A DNA stretch of 64,000 nt from NCBI GenBank assembly GCA_016748015.1, contig JAAOMT010000239.1, positions 164,812 to 228,811 of the forward strand, in the 5' to 3' direction. Every line of letters begins with the position of its first letter. The stretch's first letter is position 1. The notes beneath the pieces were generated by a model, which searched no databases, had not been told where the DNA came from, and saw only the letters and a list, made by a program, of their open reading frames with translations. The position numbers and the translations under genes are program-made. The DNA comes from Geosiphon pyriformis (lineage: Eukaryota; Glomeromycota; Glomeromycetes; Archaeosporales; Geosiphonaceae). Shown one piece after another: positions 6,636 to 63,789 of this stretch.

Positions 6636-8087
6636 ATGGAAAACCATGAAAATAAAAGAAGTCGTCCAGAAGTTCATGAGTGCAACGAGTGTTCTTTCTG
6701 TCAAGAGAGCATTCGAGATGAATGGAATAAGTGTAGAGCATGCATTTCCTTATTTTTAAAAAAAAATTACAAAGACTTTTCAAGTGGCAATAAAATAGTA
6801 GACGAAATAATTAAGAATCCAATTTATAGTGAGCATGAAATAAATTATTATGAATGGATTCCATGGAATCGTTTGTCAAAGGTCAACAAAAGTGGTGAGG
6901 GAGGGTTCGGTACACTTTATAAAGCAACATATATTGATGGATTCATTGATCAGTTTAATATAAAACATCATGGTTCAATGGAATATAAAAGAAGAGGAAA
7001 AGAGGAAGTAGCAATAAAGTTTTTAAAGTTATCTTTGCGAACCAGTGATGAACTCTTTAAAGAGGTAATTAAATTATTATTATTATTTATTATTGTTTAA
7101 TTACTTAATTTAATTAACAATTTATCATTCTTTCACCTTTGGTAGTTAAATATTCAAAGATCCATTCTCATTAATAATGTAAACACACAATTTATCTCTA
7201 AAATAATGGGAATTACACAAAACGCCATAACACTCGAGTATGGAATTGTGATGAAATTTGCCGAATACGGAGACATGCGAAAGTATTTATCCACAAATTT
7301 TCATTCTACGAGTTGGTCTGATAAATTAGAATTCGCGTGGCAGATAGCTAGTGGACTTTTAACAATTCATTCTGCTGGTATGGTTCACCGTGACCTACAC
7401 TCGGGTAACATCCTACAATATTACACTAATAGGCTATATATTGCAGACCTTGGATTATGTCAACCTACATGCCATGAAACATCAATAGGATACTCAAACT
7501 TAAAAACAACAACAGGAAAATACGCAAAGAAAAAAAATATATATGGAGTGATTCCATACATTCCACCAGAAGTTTTAAGAGGAGAAAAGTTTACAACAGC
7601 TGGTGATATTTATAGTTTCGCCATGATATTATGGGAATTAGCAACAGGAAAGCCTCCCTTTCATGATTATTCTCATGATCAAATACTTATAATGGCTATT
7701 TTAAATGGTCAAAGACCTAAGATTACCTCCCCAATTATTCCACCTTCTATCGCTAAGCTAATTGAAAAGTGTTGGGATCCCAATCCAGAAAATCGTCCTA
7801 CCACCAGAGAAGTTTACAAAAGATTAGAAAAACTTGATAAATATAGTTTTGAGTTTCAGAAATCAGAAAAGTACATGAAAGAACATGTGAAAGGCGATGA
7901 CTTGACAACAAAACCTTCAGAAAGATTTTCAAAATTTATTAAATTCCTTAAAAGAACTATAAAACACAGGGAGATAACAAAAATATCAAGGGTAATAATT
8001 CATCCAGGAGCAGTTTATACAAGTCGTCTTTTAACTGCTCAAACGGTTGATTTTTCAACAGGTTTCTTTCATTCAATTTATAAATGA
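6636..8087 (+). CDS. TKL-like protein kinase K1 (two exons, 456 aa)
   Basis: Exons 6636-7064 and 7146-8087 join in phase 0 across an 81 bp GT-AG intron. Residues 15-36 hold a Cys/His cluster (H14, C16, C19, C22, C33, C36), followed by the family motif DFSSGN and KNPIY (47-64). The kinase domain starts at about 80: glycine loop GEGGFG (87-92), ATP lysine K128 in VAIK, catalytic HRDLHSGN (224-231), DLG (244-246) in place of DFG, and YIPPEVL in place of the APE motif. The C-terminus carries the family tail (IHPGAVYTSRLLTAQ, then DFSTGF). It resembles the expanded kinases of Glomeromycotina that usually end in a plain kinase domain. Substrate and pathway are unknown. The start is the ATG in accATGG, as in the paralogues. 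The residue before GEGG is Ser where others have Ile. Confidence 0.9.
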
Positions 8088-9080: not shown

Positions 9081-10612
9081 CATAATGTTGCACCTACGAT
9101 TACCTGTGCATTCATTATTCTTTTGGTGGCAACAATTCTTCTTCCACATATCTTCTTCTCGACTCTACCAGTTGCAGTGATTCCAAAAATGTACCGATTG
9201 TGGTGACAAGCGTTGATCACGAGTAAAATGGATTTTAATACAATTTTCAATTTAACAATATTAATAAATCCCCTATAATATTTCAAAATTAAAACTTCAA
9301 ATTCATTTATTATTATAGGACATGTCTTTTTAATAAGCCGCACTATGTATAAAACGTAATTATATTTTAATAACCCCATAAATTATTGTGAATTGTTTAT
9401 TTTACTAAAATATATTTATTTAATATAGGTTCGCTAAGTTGGGTGATATATTTACAATTTATATTGGCCCTCAGCGCTTTATAATTATAAACAGCCCCAA
9501 AGAGATGTGTATAAGAGACAGCCAATATTCTTGTCCTTTCCTCCATATCGAAAGGAGCTTTCCAACATTATACAATTACGTGACGAATTGGAAACACTAA
9601 TGCGAGGCTTATTGAAAAGAGTAGAGGATGATTTGGAAAAGAAACCATGTGTTTCCCAAGATTTTTTGCAGAAATTGAATGAAGGCTCTATTGACGAGTT
9701 AAGCGTTATTACATTATGCAATGTGTTTATGCTAGCAGGAACAGTGAGTCCATAAATTTTATTTTAATAAGTGAATATCTCTATAATAAGTCGGATAAAT
9801 TTTAAAAATCTTTTTGCCAATTCTAGGAAACCGTAGCAATTACTATATATTGGCTTATTGCAATTTTAGCCAATCATCCTGAGTTTCAACAGAAAGCGCA
9901 CAAAGAATTAGACAAAGTAGTTGGACGTAAACGTTTACCAAACATATCTGATTTTAACTCACTTCCATATATCCAATCGCTGATTAAAGAAACTCTTCGT
10001 TGGATTCCTCTAGTTAGGAAGCTTTTTATATTCCACTACATTTTTTTTTCGAAATATATCACTTATATATTCATAGTTTTTCTATTATTATTAGGATCCA
10101 GCACCGTTAAGGTTTCTTGAACAAGATGATGAATATTTTAGGATATCATATCCCAAAAAATTCAATGATTTATTTAAATGTTTATGCGTTGAATTTTGAC
10201 GAAAACCGGTATCAAAATCCCGACGTTTTCAATCCGGATCGGTTTCTTGATTCAAAAGAAAGCATGGCCGCCTCGGCAAAAGGTTCCTACGAAAATCGAG
10301 ATCATTATTCTTTTTCGATGGGGAGACGAATTTGTACTCGAATTCACTTAGTAAGTTTTTAACGATTCTTTTATAGATTCATTTTATTCTCCCCTAAATT
10401 CTGAAAATAAAATTTATATTTAATAGGCTGAAGCAGAAACGCTCTCTATCTTAAGTGGGCTACTTTGGACCTTTAAAATCGAAAACGTGAAACGGGATGC
10501 AACTGGAAGAGTTCTTCCAATTGATCTAAATAATTCCTTTAAAAGTCGTCTTCAGACTCCTTATCCATTTAATGTTCGATTCATCCCGAGGCATCAAGAA
10601 ATAAATCTTTAA
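9081..10612 (+). CDS. Cytochrome P450, incomplete: adapter inside and one frameshift
   Basis: Heme-thiolate monooxygenase, probably ER-anchored. A hydrophobic anchor-like stretch (CAFIILLVATILLPHIFF, about 9098-9160) precedes an exon at 9429-9502 (FAKLGDIFTIYIGP, early beta-sheet region). A Tn5 mosaic end (9503-9521) then interrupts. The gene resumes with exons 9522-9743, 9827-10012, 10095-10350 and 10427-10612, which give the I-helix (AGT|ETV), the K-helix ETLRW, the NPDVFNPDRF region, the heme loop FSMGRRIC and a normal C-terminus. Roughly 110 family residues are missing at the adapter. One extra T in the TTTT run near 10131-10134 breaks the frame; removing it restores phase at the next splice site. 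The heme-loop Cys is followed by T-R where the family has x-G. The anchor exon and start are uncertain. Confidence 0.8.
9503..9521 (+). other. Tn5 mosaic-end (Nextera) adapter sequence
   Basis: AGATGTGTATAAGAGACAG, the exact 19 bp Tn5 transposase mosaic end used in Nextera libraries, lies between two parts of a P450 gene that do not adjoin in the family. No transposase gene or second end is present, so this is best read as library adapter left in the assembly at a false join. Confidence 0.93.
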
Positions 10613-11745: not shown

Positions 11746-14195
11746 TTTATTCTTTTCTTTTCTTTTCTTAATTTGTATATGGTTAGTTTTTGTAAAGTAT
11801 AGTGAATAAATTTTTATTCAAAAGTACAAACAATACCTGTTATTGAATTATAAAAATGTTAATATAAAACATATAATTATAGCAGCTGTTTTATTTTTTG
11901 TTGACAGTATTTTTCAAAGTTGAAATTTCTCCTTGATTATTTTCTTGCCATACAATATTTGTTCTTTCTTGCTATTTATTAGCATGTTACTTTAACTAAT
12001 AATAATAGATTAATATTTGGCTGTATTGTTTAATATAGTTATTTTTGGAAAAACATTTTCTATTAAAAAACAAAATAAATTGTGTTTTAATACACACTTT
12101 TATTCAGCTAAACTATAAAATCACCTAATTTAAAAAAAAGCTGAACTAATAACATAAAAACTAAAACAGTTTCTTTTGGAAATGCTATTGGCTTTAATGA
12201 TATATAGAAGATTATTACTAATTGTCAAAAATTTTATAAGTAAATAATCTTTATTTTGGTGTTTGGTGTTTTTAAAAAATCAAATTGGCTTATATTAAGC
12301 TTGTATTTTAATAATTATATAGTTTTATTAATATTAAAATGGTTATTAAGAATAATATTAAGCTTTTTTGTATGAAGTTTATATTTCAAATTTTTTTGAA
12401 TATTGCAACCAAAGTTGAACTGGCTGAATCTTTTTCTCACTACATTAAAAATTATCAAATCTGTTGTAGCTTCATTTTTGTTTCTGTCTTTGCTGTTATC
12501 GTACTTTTTGACACATTAAATTATAAAGTTAATAATGCTTTTGGGGGTATTTGGTGAAGTTTTCACAATTAAATTTAAGCATATTGTTTTGTGACAATAT
12601 GTTGTTGTTTATTTTAAGAACTCTGTTTCTGCTGATTTTGCTCTGAACCACAAAAAAAATAGTGTTAGAATTTTTTGCTTCTGGATCAAGAAAAGATAAT
12701 TGTCTTGAGAAATTTTTTTAAGGTGAATCTGATTAATCTTCTTTCTGGCTGCACAGCTCATGAAATTAGTTACAAGATCACTTAAGTGCAGTTATTATCA
12801 AAAAAAGAATGCTCAACAACCAAAAAAATATTATTCTCAAATTTCAAAGCATAAAAATACATCCAAACTGATAATAATTTTCTAAGAAACTGCACAAAAT
12901 TCAAAACTCTTCTTGACTAGACATAATGATATATTATTCTTTGAACGATTTTTCCGAATGTGTACATTAAGCTCTAAATTTTAAATCGAAGCGGTATTTT
13001 ACACATAGAATCATAGATGTCTTGAATTCTAAAGATAATATGATTTTCACAGAACAATATTTGCTTCGAAATTGACATGATATCACTTTTGTTCATTTAA
13101 AGGTAGTGTCAGATGATGTAGAATGAAAACGAAATGATGCTTCTAAGAAAATATTATACACGAAATCGGTTAAATTATTGGAAGGGGTTCTCAAAACCAG
13201 ATTAAAATAATATTTCGCTTAATACGAGATAAATGAAAAAAGTAATAAAGAGTTTTCGGGTTTAAAAAATGAAATAGGCAAACATCAAAAAAGTTGGTTT
13301 TCACATATCATTATAAATTACAGGATCAATATCTCATTAATAAAATAATCATATTCTAGAGTCATTATGTCGAAAGTATTTACATATGGCATTCAAAAAT
13401 GTGCGACCTTTTAACACGGTAATCACCCTATTTAATTTTCTTTGTGTTCATAGCTTTCTATAGAATCTTTCAAGTTTTAAACAAATTGTGTGTTTTATCC
13501 CAATTGGCTGGGAACAAATGAATCTCAGAAAAATTAAGCGAATTTATCTTTGTAAATACCAACTAAATAGTTTCATGAATTATACGTTGCATTAATTTCC
13601 CAGAGCCCACTTATTTATTATTAGTTTTAAATTTAATCTAAGCAACTCTTCATTTTGCGATTATAAATACCCCAAAATTATCCTCAAAAGAAAGTTATTG
13701 CCGAGAACAATTGTTAAATATTATTAATAAAGAACAATACTCTATTTGTACCAAGAATACGATGAACTTTTTTTTATTTCCTATCAACTAATTCAAAATG
13801 TATTTTCTACTATTTTTTGCATAATTTCTTGAATATAACACTGATAAGCATAATCAATAATTTAGGTAACGCTTTTTACCATTGTCTGTGAACGTACAAG
13901 ATTTTTTTAATAGAAATTCCCTATAAAACCTGTTTATTACATGCACAATTAACATCAGCTGCCCTAATTGTGGAAAAACAATGCTTATCTCCTGCCTTTT
14001 TCGATATGCTTTTAAAATATTTTAGGACATTGTTAGTATACTTTAACAATGCATCGCCAAATTTATAGTTAAATCGAACAATAATTTTTAACCTGGGTAT
14101 TGAAAATTTCTACCAAAATTTAGCTTTTTACCATTTTGATTTAATTCGTATTGTTTCCAATTATAGATGCTGATATGAAGACCATGATTTTTTGC
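11746..14195. other. AT-rich region, no gene recognised
   Basis: The longest frame (12339-12557, +, 72 codons) has a hydrophobic C-terminal half (CCSFIFVSVFAVIVLF) but no recognisable family and poor codon context, so it is not called. A TATA-like sequence (TTATAAATACCCC, about 13662) is followed only by very short frames. Confidence 0.45.
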
Positions 14196-14202
14196 TATAA
14201 AA
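14196..14202 (+). promoter_or_regulatory. TATA box of the CaaX peptide gene
   Basis: TATAAAA lies about 100 bases before the ATG at 14299, the same spacing as in the kinase promoters of this window. It is followed by a pyrimidine-rich leader (cttctcttctctcaatcc) typical of fungal transcription starts. Assigned from sequence and position only. Confidence 0.5.
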
Positions 14203-14298
14203 CTAACGGTGCTTTCCCAACTTCTCTTCTCTCAATCCAAATCAACAAAATAACCAAAAGAAAAAAAGCAAAGCAAATAAAATAAAGTAATTTGAAAA

Positions 14299-14430
14299 AT
14301 GCAACCAACAACCAACAATCAATCCTTATTCAATCCGCTCTCAATCATCGCTCCTGGCAATGGCTCTATTAAAGGACCAACCGGTGACCCAGACGATGGT
14401 AGCGGCACTGGTCAATGCTCAATTATGTAA
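14299..14430 (+). CDS. Small 43-aa protein ending in a CaaX box (CSIM)
   Basis: A single exon starts at the first ATG after a TATA box and a CT-rich leader, and ends Q-C-S-I-M-stop. C-a-a-X with X = Met is a farnesylation signal; CSIM is also the box of vertebrate prelamin A. The body is Asn/Gln/Thr-rich at the start (MQPTTNNQSLFNPL) and Gly/Pro/Asp/Ser-rich before the box (GPTGDPDDGSGTGQ), with no TM segment or signal peptide. Small size, low complexity and a terminal CaaX box are the form of ascomycete and basidiomycete lipopeptide pheromone precursors, but no maturation site can be confirmed, and a non-pheromone prenylated peptide is equally possible. Local base composition is less A+T-rich than its surroundings and the reading frame is clean. 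The GT in ATGTAA could alternatively be a splice donor, which would remove the box. Confidence 0.55.
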   Translation: MQPTTNNQSLFNPLSIIAPGNGSIKGPTGDPDDGSGTGQCSIM

Positions 14431-17400
14431 ATTCAAAAATTATTCCCATCGAAAATTCTCTTTCTTGACCACCACCATCACTTTTTGCCGCCAAATTTAT
14501 AACCGAACCAAATTTTTTAAAAGTTATGTTCGTTACCTCTGGCTCATACTTTTTTAAGAGGTTTAACGATTTGATTCAAATTAGTTAATACCGAGTTTAA
14601 ACGCTTTAAATGATAGTTTAGCCTTCAAAAATGAATTATCTCTTTAAATATTTATAATTTTAATTTTGTATCAATCCTATTAAATTAATTTTTATTTGAC
14701 TTGTTTTTATATGATATATAATTAATTACTAAATGTCAAATAAGTAACAAGATCAATAATTAATTGTGAAAACAACAATTTTTTCTTGAAAAAAGATTTT
14801 GAATCAAAACAAGAAAAAAAATTGATTCTTGACTAAACTGAACAGAAGCTTTTACTTTAATAATTTTTATAATATTGATTTTGTGAATATAAATGTCTGA
14901 AAAACAAATTTAAATTTTTTCTGTTCAATTGAATTTCCAGTTAAATAATAAAATAATTAACTGGTCTCATGCCAGCTTTTTAACAAAAGGTTTTATTCTA
15001 TTTTGAACAAATATCTATCATTTTGAATCATAATCAAATTCATGCATAACATTGGATTCATTTCAGCATGCGAATTGCTAAAATAAAAATCACAAATTCC
15101 ATACTAATGTGGCCTGAAATATTTTATTCAAATTTCTCTCAATTAATCCCCATAATCCACCAAACCAAAAGAAATAATTCAATCGAGTCACAACTATATT
15201 TCTCATTATGAATACATAGAATAATTGTATGACCAAGTTCCAAGAGATCGATTAGTTTTTTTCCATCCCAAATTTAAAAAAAAAACTTTTTACCAAATTT
15301 ACTTTTAATCATTTTATGACTTTTATTTTATTTACAATCATCAGCATATAAATTGTTTAACTTAAAAATAATTACATATAATTTTCACACAAATATAACT
15401 TTTTTAAAAATTATAAAAGAATAACTTGAATTGGTTGCAACTTTTAAAAGATGATCTTGACACAAAAATCAAGAGTATACCTTTCTAATACAGAGAAAAA
15501 CAGTACTGACACACCATATATACACATAACAACAAAAAACTCACAGATAGAGAATTTCTGCAAAACTTTTTTTACTAACAAATACTATTACAATGTTTAA
15601 AAAAGGAATTGGCTCTTTTTATATACATATAGCATTTAATAATGAATTGACAATTATCTCTGCGTCCCAAATAGCAAAAATACAGAGAGTAATTTCTCCA
15701 GTTATTAGAAATAAACGCAACCAATACTTTTGATAACCATTAGGAAGACAGAAACACTTTTGGTAATGCTGGCACATAAAGATATTATGTTTTTTACTCA
15801 AAAGTTTGATTCAGTTATTGTCTCATTATTTAAGGTATTGGATATAATAAATTGAAATAAAAAAATTACGCAAAAAATTTTCAAAAAATATTCTGCTGGG
15901 TTTATTATTATTTTTATCAACATCTGATTTCTAAGGCCAAGCAATAAGCTGTTACAGCGTCAAACATTCTTTTTGGGATATTAAGATATTCCTTAAATGC
16001 TCCTATGGAATTCATTAAAAATAATTAACTTTACTACATTTATTGTCATTATGAGGTAAAAAAAAGTTTAATTTCATTAACCACTTTATTATCATTTGAA
16101 AAGTCTGAAAAGTTTTTCAAAAAATCAGAAATGGCATATTGCATGCAAATTCACCCAATTATTTTGAATGTTTTTTTAACATTCATAGAAGTCATGAGCT
16201 TTTAAACAGGTTGCTTTAGTTTCAAAATTTTCCATAATGTAAATCAAATTTGCATAAGTATTTATGAAAACGTTTCTAAATATGATTCAGATAGTTCAAA
16301 ATTCGAAACCTAATAATTAAAAGATTAAAATCCATACTAAATTGATTGTATCTCAATTGAAAAACTCCAACTCAAATGCTGCATTCATTGATGAAATCAT
16401 GTGAAGCCCCTATATTAAGTGGCTTGTTTATTATTTCAGCATTTTTTTTCACATTTGACATGTTACAAAATGGATATTGAAGAATTGATACTTTGAAAAT
16501 TCAAGAATGTATTTAGTTTTAATATACTGATACTTTCCATTGTTTTAAGGCTATCAAAATTCTATTGTTTCAGATGATTTGGCTTTCGCAACAACCATTT
16601 TAAATTGAAAAATAGCCCTTTTTTACAACACAGCTACTGATAGCGTCTCAAGTACAATTATATTATAATCTTATATTTCAAAATATTTTGTGCTGAATTA
16701 TTTTAAACTGAAATGATATTATCTAAAGCTTTGAGGTATATACTATTAAGCTTAAAGAATTAAATTTTTTTTATTATAAATTTAATAGTCGTAATACAAA
16801 ATATTTTTTTAGGAAATAATTGTGGCTTTATTTTAATTTAGTTCGTGACAAACCATATTATAAAAATTTTCTTTCAATGGTTAATTAAAATTTAAAAATA
16901 ATAATTTTTGATACTCGATTATAATAAAATATTATAGAATTAATTATACATTATATGATTAATAAATGTAATATATAAAAATATAACCAATATTCTTGAA
17001 GATTAAAATCAATTGTAAAGTTTTAGAATTAAAGATAACTAATATATTCACTTCAGTTTTTAATTAGCGCTGGTTATAATTTTTAGATAAATGTCATTTG
17101 AATTTTAGAAAATAATTATAGATATAACAGCAAAAAATATTTGAGGGATAGACTTGCAAGTGAAATTTATTCAAAGTAAATAACAATGAATTATAGATTA
17201 TTTTAGATTTGCAATGATTAACAAATAAGTTCTCAAACTATTGTAATCTTAAAGATTTATTGAATCTTTATTTAATTATTAATTTTTACAATTTCGCTAA
17301 CATTAATTTAAAATAATTGAATCATTGATTATAAGGTCTGTTATAAAAAAATATGATATCTTTGCTTTTCTTTAACTAATTGTATTTATTTCTGCTATCA

Positions 17401-39091: not shown

Positions 39092-39959
39092 CTAAAAAAC
39101 AACATAATTGAACAAACCTGTTGAGAAATTAACCGTCTGCGCAGTTAAAAGACGACTTGTATAAATTGCTTCAGGGTGAAAGACTGTTGACCATTTTGTT
39201 GTCTGGTCGTATTCACTAATGTCTTTTTTGAGTTTATTTGAATCAGCAATTGCTTTTACGAATGTATCTGCTTCCTGAAACTGTGCATTATCGATATCCC
39301 GCATTTCAAACAATCTATCTTTAACTTCTTTGGACGTGGGACGTTTCAATGGATCAGCATCCCAACACCTTTGAATTATTTGAGCAAAACAAGGTGGAAT
39401 AGTGGGTGATGCGATATCAGGTCTTTCACCGTTTAGAATATTCATTATGAGAATGACATCATGAGGACGATCATGAAAGGGAGGCTTTCCTGTCGCTATT
39501 TCACACAATATCATCCCTAAACTATAAACATCCCCAGCCAGTGTGTGTTTTGCCCCTTTTAAAACCTCTGGGGGAATGTATGGAATTACTCCAAAAACTT
39601 TGGTTTCTGAATTTGCTAATACTTCCTTGTTTGCAGGTCGACTCAATCCAAAATCTCCAATCGCTACACTCTCGTATGAAAATTGTAGGATATTTCCCGA
39701 ATGTAGGTCGCGATGAATCATACCAGCAGAATGAAGAGTACTAAGTGCGGCTGCAACTCCTATCGCGTATTTTGCTTTAAGCTCCCAACGAGTGTCATAA
39801 AAGTATGTGGATAAATATTTCCGCATATCTCCATATTGGGCAAGCTGCATCACAAGACCATAATCGAGTGTTTCGGGATTTTGCGTAATCCCTAGTATTT
39901 TTGAGATAAACCGTGTACCATGTTCTTTAGTGAATATAGCTCTTTGAACATTTATCTAA

Positions 39960-40003
<44 letters not shown>

Positions 40004-40511
40004 TCAATGAAGAAATTATATAAATTTCAGAGATTTTATTTAAATAGTTTTTAATTACCTCCTTAAAGATTTCCCAATTGTTTTGTGAATTTGAATTTAT
40101 AAATTTTATTGCAACTTTCTTATTTTTCTTTCTTTGATACTCAGTTCCACCATAATGTTGTATTAAACTTAAATCAATTATTCCATCAATCCATGTTGCT
40201 TTGTATATAGTCCCAAATCCTCCCTGGCCAATCTTGGAAATATCACTTAAACGCTCCCAAGGAATCCATTCATAATATTCAAATCTATCCCAATCTCGTT
40301 CATTCTTGGCTGGTACAAACATTGGGTGTTTAATGATTTCGTCAACAGTTTCGTTGCCACTAGAAAAGTTAGTATAGAGCTTTTCAACAAACAAGAAACA
40401 GCATGCCTCGCATAAATTGGAGTCTTTGTTTTTGATATTTCTTTGACACATTTTACAATCGTCACAACTATGAGCTTGTGGACGAGTTCTTAAAATATCA
40501 AAGTATTCCAT
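39092..40511 (-). CDS. TKL-like protein kinase K3 (two exons, 438 aa)
   Basis: Exons 40059-40511 and 39092-39955 join in phase 0 after IFKE, the same site as in K1, K2 and K4; the 103 bp intron holds a TAA microsatellite. The Cys/His cluster (H14, C16, C19, C22, C34, C37, C38) is followed by NFSSGNETVDEIIKHP. Kinase motifs: GQGGFG 95-100, K136 in VAIKF, HRDLHSGN (232-239), canonical DFG at 252-254 followed by LSRP (the others have LCQP), and YIPPEVLKGAKHTLAGDVYS. It ends with the family tail (HPEAIYTSRLLTAQ, VNFSTGLFNY). It is the most divergent of the four and lacks the shared promoter blocks. All catalytic residues are present; target unknown. Confidence 0.9.
39959..40001 (+). repeat. (TAA)n microsatellite in the K3 intron
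   Basis: About 14 TAA units directly inside the 3' part of the intron on -, where they form a TTA run just before the TTTTAG acceptor and act as its T-rich tract. Confidence 0.93.
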
Positions 40512-54119: not shown

Positions 54120-56141
54120 CTAATATTGATTTTTAAACTCGTTTTTCCTCATTTTCGTCATTCTCCGTCCATTAGCATAGCACCATCCAAGATCGTGTTG
54201 TGCTTTTGTATTACCCGCCTCTGCTGCTTTTGAATAGAATTCAAATGCTTTTTCTAAATCTTTCGTCGTTCCCTGTCCTTGATCATAACACCATCCAAGA
54301 TTGTATTGTGCATTTGCATTACCCGCCTCTGCTGCTTTTGAATAGAATTCAAACGCTTTTTTTTCATTTTTCCTTGTTCCCCATCCATTTCGATAATAAT
54401 TTCCAAGATTATATTGTGCCATTGTATTACCTGCCTCTGCTGCTTTTGAATAGAGTTCAATTGCTTTCTTCTGATTTTTCCACGTTCCTTGTCCATTATC
54501 ATAAAACCATCCAAGATCGTATTGTGCGTTTTTATACCCCGCATCTGCTGCTTTTGAATAGAATTCGAATGCTTTTTCTAAATTTTTCGTCGCTCCCAAT
54601 CCATTTTGATAACACAATCCAAGATTGTATTGTGCATTTGTATTACCCGCCTCTGCTGCTTTTGAATAGAATTCAAATGCTTTTTCTAAATTTTTCGTCG
54701 TTCCCCATCCATTATCATAACACAATCCAAGCTGGTATTGTGCATTTGTGTTACCCGCCTTTGCTGCTTTTGAATAGAATTCAAATGCTTTTTCTAAATT
54801 TTTCGTCGTTCCACGTCCATTCTCATAACACCATCCAAGATTGTAATGTGCATTTGTATGTCCTGCTTCTGCTACTTTTGAATAGAATTCAAATGCTTTT
54901 TCTAAATTTTTCGTCGTTCCCCATCCATTATCATAACACCATCCAAGCTTGTATTGCGCATTTGTGTTACCCGCCTCTGCTGCTTTTGAATAGAATTCAA
55001 ATGGTTTTTCTAAATTTTTCGTCGTTCCACGTCCATTCTCATAACACCATCCAAGATTGTATTGTGCATTTGTATGTCCTGCCTCTGCTGCTTTTGAATA
55101 GAATTCAAATGCTTTTTCTAAATTTTTCGTCGTTCCCCATCCATTATCATAACACAATCCAAGCTTGTATTGTGTATTTGTATTACCCGCCTCTGCTGCT
55201 ATTGAATAGAGCTCGAATGCTTTTTCTGAAATTTTCCTCGTTCCCCATCTATTATCATAACACCATCCAAGATTGTATTGTGCATTTGTATGTCCTGCCT
55301 CTGCTGCTTTTGAATAGAATTCGAATGCTTTTTCTAAATTTTTCGTCGTTACCAATCCATTTTGATAATACAATCCAAGATTATATTGCGCCATTGTATT
55401 ACCCACCTTTGCTGCTTTTGAATAGGATTCAAATGCTTTTGCTAAATTTTTCGTCGTTCCCCATCCATTTTGAAAACAAAGTCCAAGATTGTATCGTGCA
55501 TTTGTATTACCCGCCTCTGCTGCTTTTGAAAATAATTCAAATGCTTTTTCTAAATTTTTCTTTGTTCCCGATCCCTTTAGATAACATGTTGCAAGATTGT
55601 AGTATGCATTTGTATTACCAGCCTCTGCTACTTTTGAATAAAGTTCAAATGCTTTTGTTGAATTTTTCGTCGTTCCTAATCCATTTTCATAACAAAATCC
55701 AAGATTGAATTGTGCAATTGTATATCCTGCCTCTGCTGCTTTTGAATAGAGCTGGAATGCTTTTCCTTGATCTTGTAAAGTACCAATTCCATTATCATAA
55801 CAACGTCCTAAGAAGAATTGTCCGAAAGAATCTTTTGCTTTCGCTGCTTTCTGGAATCTTTGAAAGGCTTTTGTTAAATTAGGAATAGTTCCAATCCCAT
55901 GTTCAAAAGAAAAGCCGAGCAAAATATTGTCTATCGAACGCTTTAAACTTTTATTCTTCAAACAATCGAATAAATCTTCAGGTGTTTTCTGATTGTGCTC
56001 AAGGTATATTTTCACCAAGTCGGCAACTTTTGAATATTCGCTAGCTGGAAAAATGTCCAAATTTTTTTTGATGACAATTAATGCTCCTTCAAGCCAGTCG
56101 ATGGGTGAAATTGCAATTTCAATTGATGAAGTTGAAGACAT
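54120..56141 (-). CDS. Sel1-like repeat (SLR) protein (673 aa)
   Basis: One exon. Residues 1-70 are a non-repeat N-terminus (IDWLEGALIVIKKNLDIFP). From about residue 72 there is one partial repeat, then 15 complete 36-residue Sel1 repeats of the form NAQYNLGxCYxNGxGTTKN-LEKAFEFYSKAAEAGNT, then a partial repeat that ends in an aberrant sequence (RRMTKMRKNEFKN) and a stop. Sel1 repeats form alpha-alpha superhelices that bind other proteins; in Glomeromycotina they form a very large family, often next to or fused with TKL-like kinases. The repeats are nearly identical at DNA level, which suggests recent internal duplication. The end is probably frameshifted (see the decayed repeat at 54000-54119). 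No signal peptide or TM segment. Confidence 0.92.
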   Translation of the reverse strand: MSSTSSIEIAISPIDWLEGALIVIKKNLDIFPASEYSKVADLVKIYLEHNQKTPEDLFDCLKNKSLKRSIDNILLGFSFEHGIGTIPNLTKAFQRFQKAAKAKDSFGQFFLGRCYDNGIGTLQDQGKAFQLYSKAAEAGYTIAQFNLGFCYENGLGTTKNSTKAFELYSKVAEAGNTNAYYNLATCYLKGSGTKKNLEKAFELFSKAAEAGNTNARYNLGLCFQNGWGTTKNLAKAFESYSKAAKVGNTMAQYNLGLYYQNGLVTTKNLEKAFEFYSKAAEAGHTNAQYNLGWCYDNRWGTRKISEKAFELYSIAAEAGNTNTQYKLGLCYDNGWGTTKNLEKAFEFYSKAAEAGHTNAQYNLGWCYENGRGTTKNLEKPFEFYSKAAEAGNTNAQYKLGWCYDNGWGTTKNLEKAFEFYSKVAEAGHTNAHYNLGWCYENGRGTTKNLEKAFEFYSKAAKAGNTNAQYQLGLCYDNGWGTTKNLEKAFEFYSKAAEAGNTNAQYNLGLCYQNGLGATKNLEKAFEFYSKAADAGYKNAQYDLGWFYDNGQGTWKNQKKAIELYSKAAEAGNTMAQYNLGNYYRNGWGTRKNEKKAFEFYSKAAEAGNANAQYNLGWCYDQGQGTTKDLEKAFEFYSKAAEAGNTKAQHDLGWCYANGRRMTKMRKNEFKNQY
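54150..55850 (-). repeat. 108 bp tandem repeat array coding for Sel1 repeats
   Basis: About 15 tandem units of 108 bp, highly alike (ttgaatagaattcaaatgc and ctaaatttttcgtcgttcc recur on + at that spacing). Alternate units such as 8, 10, 12 and 9, 11 resemble each other most, suggesting two-unit duplications. Confidence 0.85.
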
Positions 56142-62399: not shown

Positions 62400-63789
62400 A
62401 TGGAAAACAAAGAAATTAAAAGAACAACTCGTCCATACGCTCATAATTGCAATGAGTGTCGACGGTGTCAACAGAGTATTAAAGATAATTATAATCATTG
62501 TAGAACATGCCAGTTCATGTTTTTTGAAAAACATTATAAAGACTTTTCAAGTGGCAATGAAGAAGTTGATAAAATAATTAAGAATCCAATCTATATTCCT
62601 GATAATTGGAATAGTCAATTGAATTACTATGAATGGATTCCATGGGAGCGTTTGTCGGATATCAACGAAATTGCTAGAGGAGGGTTTGGTATAATTTATA
62701 AAGCAACCTTAATTGATGGATTAATTGATGTAGAAAGTATAAAATATCATGGTTCAATGGAATATAAAAGAAAAAGAATAGGATGGGCGGTAGCAATAAA
62801 AATTATCCCAACGAACAGTTCAGAAGTGTTTAAAGAGGTAACAAACTATTTATATTTATATATATTAATTTAATTCACATTTACTTATTAGTTATTTACT
62901 ATATATATTATCTATTTACTTAATCTTTTTTTACACTGTGTTTTGATAGTTATATATTCAAAGAGCTATGTTTAGTTATAAGGGATATGGAAGTTCTTAT
63001 GTCTCTAAAATATTGGGGATTACGCGAAACGCTGAAACACTCGAGTATGGAATTGTGATGGAGTTTGCCAAAAAGGGAGATATGCGAAAATATTTATCAA
63101 CAAATTTTCATTCTACGAGTTGGTATGATAAATTACACACCGCGTACAGTATAGCTTCTGGACTTGAACATATTCATTCTACTGGTTTGGTTCATCGTGA
63201 CCTACATTCGGGCAACATCCTACAATTATACAATAATACGGTAACTATTGGAGACCTCGGATTATGTCAGCCTACAAACTATGAAGCAACAACAATAACA
63301 GAGGAAAAAAAGATATTTGGAGTGATTCCATATATTCCACCAGAAGTTTTAAGAGGAGAAAAGTTTACAACAGCTGGTGATATTTATAGTTATGGAATGT
63401 TATTATGGGAATTATCAATAGGAAAATCTCCTTTTCATGATTGTCCTCATGACGAAATCCTTATAATGGCTATTTTAAATGGTCAAAGACCTAATATTAC
63501 CTCCCCACTTATTCCACCTTCTATCGGTAAACTCATTAAAAAGTGTTGGGATGCTAATCCTAAGAATCGTCCTACTGCTAGAGAACTTACAGGAAAGTTT
63601 ATGGAACTTCTTGATTTGTATAATAATCATATATTTAGATTGATATACTTTGGGAAATCAAATATACTAACAAAAATAGCAAAAAATGACTCGACAACAA
63701 CAAAGATAGCAATTCATCCAGAAGCAGTTTATACAAGTCGTCTTTTAACTGCTCAAATGGTCAATTTTTCAACAGGTTTGTTTATTTAA
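62400..63789 (+). CDS. TKL-like protein kinase K4 (two exons, 425 aa)
   Basis: Exons 62400-62837 and 62950-63789 join in phase 0 after VFKE (112 bp intron). The Cys/His cluster (H15, C17, C20, C23, C34, C37) is followed by KDFSSGNEEVDKIIKNPIY. In the glycine loop the first Gly is Ala (IARGGFG, 91-97). ATP lysine K134 in VAIKI, HRDLHSGN (228-235) and PPE are present; DFG is replaced by DLG (248-250), as in K1. The family tail (IHPEAVYTSRLLTAQ, MVNFSTGLFI) closes the protein. The Asp of DLG and the other key residues remain, so activity is possible, but two departures from consensus (Ala in the loop, DLG) may weaken nucleotide binding. Start at accATGG as in K1. Confidence 0.9.

Follow-up and report, generated by a model that had tools for sequence, protein, structure and literature searches.

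Tiny CaaX genes in high copy number are typical of fungal pheromones. In Saccharomyces cerevisiae the a-factor precursors MFA1 and MFA2 are 36 and 38 aa long, with CVIA as the CaaX box, and Asn21 of Mfa1 is the residue directly before mature a-factor. The M-factor of Schizosaccharomyces pombe, encoded by three genes, is a farnesylated pheromone. Basidiomycete lipopeptide pheromones are made from multicopy CaaX precursors and act on STE3-type receptors; their copies differ in sequence and adjoin the receptor gene. The core site for sequence-specific HMG-box proteins is AACAAT. Arbuscular mycorrhizal fungi, for their part, are a group long held to be asexual.

A 2013 survey of Rhizophagus and Glomus cerebriforme, in its available portions, describes a single STE3, STE6 and downstream kinases and states that a peptide pheromone gene was not found (PMC3834313). 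In the accessible text of a 2019 survey, pheromone chemistry is called largely unknown in early-diverging fungi besides Mucoromycotina and Blastocladiomycota, and KEX2-processed repeat peptides of R. irregularis are put forward as a different class of candidate pheromone (PMC6339444). A 2020 study, in the sections available, reports putative mating genes to be up in co-inoculated isolates and does not report a pheromone gene (PMC7490403). Among the titles and abstract openings surveyed from the open-access literature, with preprints outside the scope, none reports a CaaX pheromone for these fungi. For lipopeptide pheromones generally, the available part of PMC10569646 names as the only strictly conserved character that a very short protein, of under 100 aa, ends in CAAX/CPAX, and calls for evidence beyond that end before the class is assigned. 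In the excerpts available from PMC1693924, the promoters of mfm1-3, the S. pombe M-factor genes, bear AACAAT/ACAATG motifs; M-specific genes of this yeast have an M-box, bound by the HMG protein Mat1-Mc, at a distance of about 1.5 or 2.5 helical turns from a Ste11 box.

The window, by which we mean the whole 64,000-nucleotide stretch analysed (on contig C402), carries a short frame with a CaaX end, within a longer shared block:

14299..14430, + strand: CaaX-peptide precursor gene, 43 residues in a single intronless open frame, MQPTTN...NGSIKGPTGDPDDGSGTGQCSIM-stop
14359..14430, + strand: predicted mature C-terminal part, codons 21-43 plus stop, with the CaaX box CSIM; residues 19-43 are invariant in 31 of 33 copies
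12792..15231, + strand: block 80% identical to one around the copy on contig C401; it holds the CaaX-peptide gene

Translation of 14299-14430 (+) reads MQPTTNNQSLFNPLSIIAPGNGSIKGPTGDPDDGSGTGQCSIM-stop, as expected from the earlier note, which had described a 43-residue frame ending in CSIM and a stop. The presumed mature part is rich in glycine and aspartate. The window contains 240 ATG-to-stop frames with lengths of 25-100 aa, and this one alone matches a strict CaaX pattern, compared with a mean of 0.033 matches in 30 first-order Markov simulations. A loose pattern gives 1 match in the window where the simulations average 1.7, and the CaaX end on its own therefore proves nothing. What lifts the frame above chance is its recurrence in the genome, with 33 full-length copies that all end in CSIM. 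A Pfam scan of the 43-residue peptide returned no family, and comparison with solved structures returned one match (E 1.8), which we regard as chance.

We searched the window's own assembly (124,688,122 bases, 406 contigs) for further copies and obtained 37 matches, comprising 33 full-length copies, complete from ATG to stop, and another 4 that are degenerate or partial. The full-length copies lie on 12 contigs: eleven on C380, five each on C241 and C216, three on C283, two on C318, and one each on C402 (the window), C254, C160, C394, C353, C401 and C356. In all 33, CSIM stands directly before the stop. The DNA pattern for QCSIM-stop has 35 exact matches in the whole genome, all within the family (the 33 full copies and 2 degenerate ones), and its reversed control has none. 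Copies with a conserved CaaX box, which the earlier note had proposed looking for, are therefore present in the same genome; the variable core it expected alongside them is not: with two outlier copies set aside, variation is lowest in the C-terminal part. Translation stops at TAA in 31 of the 33 copies and at TGA in the other 2. Splicing through the GT of ATGTAA was considered and rejected, given the TGA copies and a fall in identity right after the stop (0.61, then 0.37). The degenerate or partial copies, with a stop, a truncation or an altered CaaX, are at C353:140160, C393:605211, C83:322889 and C216:39725. A pattern search for relatives in prokaryote and virus contigs, which is silent on other fungi, yielded 22 and 5 matches, none of them confirmed.

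The copy number, about thirty, is approximate. The copy at C318:387080, counted among the 33, lies next to adapter sequence and probably reflects a chimaeric assembly. Near-identical segments (C241/C380, 98% over 3.1 kb; C160/C394, 94% over 5.9 kb) may be haplotypes or assembly duplicates, and the block shared between the window and C401 is read as an old segmental duplication. Copies also cluster near contig ends, with eleven at C380:889485-964096 (contig end 965501) and five at C241:286846-314896 (contig end 316138). These end clusters suggest an array that breaks the assembly, and the real copy number is therefore possibly higher.

Substitution patterns among the 33 full-length copies indicate selection on the protein product, as expected of a pheromone precursor. 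The copies comprise 29 distinct coding sequences that specify 8 proteins, and pairs of distinct sequences give pS 0.396 and pN 0.0187, or a dN/dS of 0.034. Variable columns number 9, 11 and 33 at codon positions 1, 2 and 3 (each out of 43), and parsimony places 13, 11 and 141 changes on the tree at these positions. Third codon positions thus change 3.28 times per column, against 0.28 for first and second positions together, and their rate equals or exceeds that of gap-free flank columns (1.25 to 3.00 changes per column, from stretches of only 4 to 31 columns). On this sequence evidence, we consider it close to certain that the frame represents a real, selected, multicopy CaaX-peptide gene.

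The amino-acid changes are unevenly placed. There are 20 in total and 6 once the outlier copies C216:57705 and C356:513199 are left out, and all 6 of those remaining among the 31 copies fall in residues 7-18, leaving residues 19-43 unchanged. Third-position changes are as frequent in one part as in the other (67 in residues 21-43, 59 in residues 1-20). The strongest constraint therefore coincides with the site expected for a mature C-terminal lipopeptide, with the exception of the two outliers, which do vary within residues 19-43. The chance that 6 evenly spread changes would all fall in residues 2-20 is 0.009, a figure for a residue split chosen afterwards and with the two outliers, changed in 19-43, left out.

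Sequence conservation also extends upstream of the coding region, where mean pairwise identity across the 33 copies is 0.61 over the 50 bases that precede the start codon and 0.73 from -100 to -50, compared with 0.90 in the coding sequence. Further upstream it is 0.39 to 0.53; past the stop it is 0.61 over the first 48 bases and 0.37 to 0.49 beyond. The following features lie in the upstream region:

14196..14202, + strand: TATA box TATAAAA, present within 350 bp upstream in 31 of 33 copies
14211..14238, + strand: CT-rich leader, within the conserved -100 to -50 stretch
14150..14155, no strand assigned: proximal ATTGTT site; 30 of 33 copies have an ATTGTT in the interval -200 to -125
14029..14050, no strand assigned: inverted pair ATTGTT-N10-AACAAT, HMG-box-type sites; a pair spaced by 8-12 bases lies upstream of 25 of 33 copies
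14077..14082, no strand assigned: further AACAAT site, from the upstream motif scan
13977..13982, no strand assigned: further AACAAT site, from the upstream motif scan

Both the TATA box and the CT-rich leader had been pointed out in the earlier note. Per 350 bp of upstream sequence there are 3.70 AACAAT/ATTGTT sites, compared with 0.61 in background (73.8 kb of C402), and 32 of the 33 copies have such a site upstream. Within 287 kb of loci, 27 inverted ATTGTT-N8..12-AACAAT pairs are situated upstream of one of the 37 matches, at a distance of no more than 400 bp, and a single pair lies elsewhere. The 18 columns of three sites have a mean top-base frequency of 0.923, against 0.566 in the other 202 columns from -330 to -110, and random placement gives equal conservation in 4 of 20000 trials. 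These motif figures overstate the evidence, since the copies share ancestry and the alignment had been seen before the sites were chosen. AACAAT-type HMG sites in the promoters are a feature that these genes have in common with S. pombe mfm1-3. What differs from mfm1-3 is that the sites here are arranged as an inverted ATTGTT-N10-AACAAT pair and that the AACAAAG Ste11 box, at 0.18 vs 0.13 per 350 bp, hardly exceeds background upstream of the copies and is not clearly enriched. Neither ACAAAG (0.21 vs 0.30) nor the yeast response element TGAAACA (0.12 vs 0.10) is clearly enriched there.

Like S. cerevisiae MFA1 and MFA2, the gene encodes a tiny precursor with a C-terminal CaaX, in several copies. 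In a single BLASTP comparison, the peptide aligned without gaps from Met1 to the yeast Mfa1 precursor, with 11 of 31 identities (E 0.002); the shared positions are MQP, Thr5, Asn21, IKG and DP. When the peptide was shuffled with Met1 and the CaaX kept, 34 of 20000 shuffles attained the alignment score to Mfa1 and 2 of 20000 had as many in-register identities. Likeness to Mfa2 is weaker, with 205 of 5000 shuffles attaining the score. In contrast to yeast a-factor, the precursor has 43 aa, a longer Gly/Asp-rich presumed mature part, CSIM rather than CVIA, and about 30 copies. A genome search with PF17317 (yeast a-factor, MFA1_2) gave 8 matches, all below its cut-off and none in the family, and a search with PF08015 (basidiomycete pheromone) gave none, a weak search in that control genomes gave none either. 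We therefore regard the likeness to yeast a-factor as suggestive at the sequence level and claim membership in neither pheromone sequence family, because both profiles miss these peptides. Basidiomycete pheromones differ in further respects, as the copies here are near-identical and lie on contigs other than that of STE3.

The genome has one STE3-type receptor locus, on contig C303, and resembles Rhizophagus and Glomus in this single STE3 gene, as far as the pathway is described in the available portions of PMC3834313. A three-exon model is open and encodes 526 aa, of which residues 7-286 match the full PF02076 profile at 3e-70; residues 1-309 of the model had no match among solved structures. 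A linked STE3-type receptor had been suggested as a test of the pheromone reading, and the gene itself is present while the linkage is absent, with 0 of the 37 peptide matches on C303. The receptor encoded in this species is a candidate for the cognate one. The STE2 receptor profile gave no match in this genome, and likewise none in control genomes. No AACAAT/ATTGTT lies in the 1482 bp upstream of STE3. Linkage of the family to homeodomain loci was also considered and rejected, as the 2 PF05920 matches are on C355 and C300, which have no peptide matches.

Three HMG-box matches lie on C303, with the end of the STE3 model about 5, 9 and 12 kb away. The frames of the nearest two (about 5 and 9 kb) were read and confirmed with Pfam (C303:341000-349500); another frame between the HMG-box matches had no Pfam match. 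The arrangement is reminiscent of a receptor/HMG mating-type neighbourhood; with at least 118 HMG-box matches genome-wide, chance could also account for it. CaaX-processing enzymes are encoded at the level of family matches, several of which cross stops or introns: one Ste24-type, two ICMT (Ste14-type), and ten prenyltransferase-beta at three loci. Such enzymes serve other CaaX proteins too. The genome is placed tentatively in Glomeromycotina on account of its AT-rich composition, its HMG-box matches (at least 118), the single STE3, kinase and Sel1 genes, and the affiliation assumed in the earlier note; the AML2 primer sequence has 0 matches in it.

The peptide is very likely prenylated. We further think it probable that the gene is one of about thirty precursors of farnesylated lipopeptide pheromones of the a-factor, M-factor and basidiomycete type, sensed by the single STE3. 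This reading is preferred because of the class features, the resemblance between promoters and the presence of a receptor that lacks a known ligand. The prenylated, pheromone-like character proposed in the earlier note draws support from the copies with a conserved CaaX and from the STE3-type gene; its pheromone function is something we infer. Relative to the 2013 survey, which in its available portions lists a lipopeptide receptor and exporter without an a-factor- or alpha-factor-related ligand gene (PMC3834313), this genome contains a family that could supply the ligand. It makes a strong candidate for the missing peptide pheromone in an apparent arbuscular mycorrhizal fungus.

Were the product instead a prenylated small protein kept on a membrane inside the cell, a house-keeping or symbiosis-related microprotein and not an exported signal, one could readily understand why the N-terminal half is also conserved and why pheromone profiles find no match (Pfam scan, PF08015, PF17317). 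Many copies of a tiny CaaX gene are nevertheless typical of fungal pheromones, and outside the two outliers it is the C-terminal 25 residues that are most constant. CaaX ends are found on non-pheromone proteins as well, according to the available part of PMC10569646, but the conserved HMG-type sites here are like those of the M-factor genes (PMC1693924, in its available excerpts), and STE3 is present, a receptor for which a survey of such fungi, in its available portions, did not find a ligand gene (PMC3834313). We consider such an intracellular role unlikely. An exported lipopeptide aimed at the plant host or at other organisms, not at the fungus's own STE3, would suit the organism if it is an arbuscular mycorrhizal fungus, since these live by signal exchange with plants. 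We think this quite improbable, since these fungi possess their own exporter STE6 and receptor STE3 (available text of PMC3834313) and mating genes have similar promoter sites (available text of PMC1693924).

Copies that are both dispersed and clustered in an AT-rich genome, long flanks common to recent duplicates, and a loose CaaX end expected 1.7 times per window by chance could all be accommodated by a transposon passenger or a chance frame with an accidental CaaX end. Yet the stretch that the window copy shares with other copies has no fixed ends, extending over about -25..+135 for C318, -112..+172 for many C380 and C241 copies, and -1507..+932 for C401, and neither an element boundary with terminal repeats nor a neutral codon pattern was seen at the copies. 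An accident would not preserve the CSIM end in 33 of 33 copies, and the 3.28 changes per column at third codon positions against 0.28 at first plus second positions are not those of a chance frame. We reject this origin as extremely improbable.

If the gene encodes a pheromone precursor sensed by STE3, Cys40 would be farnesylated, in keeping with a CaaX box in which X is Met, after which SIM would be clipped off and the new end carboxymethylated. The N-terminal half would be removed, possibly after Asn21, by analogy with a-factor. The peptide may leave the cell via a Ste6-type ABC transporter, and it would then act on the STE3 of the same genome. More tentatively, and less likely than not, the thirty-odd genes might be under HMG-box control and make an a-factor-type lipopeptide that arbuscular mycorrhizal fungi sense through their own STE3, as an autocrine or kin-recognition signal and not a two-mating-type signal. 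If true, such a signal could let hyphae of like strains home in on each other and fuse, or it could serve self-compatible mating. Sex in arbuscular mycorrhizal fungi is an old open question, and the peptide sequence makes the ligand testable at the bench.

Elsewhere in the window, positions 9503-9521 hold an exact 19-base sequence that recurs at C318:387254; we take it to be the Nextera (Tn5) mosaic end, and its occurrence within the assembly points to local mis-assembly. Of 10 frames scanned, 4 have protein-kinase (PK_Tyr_Ser-Thr) matches (7206-8087, 39092-39850, 39927-40511 and 62968-63789), of which one falls below its cut-off. A 673-residue frame at 54120-56141 (-) has 15 Sel1 repeat stretches.
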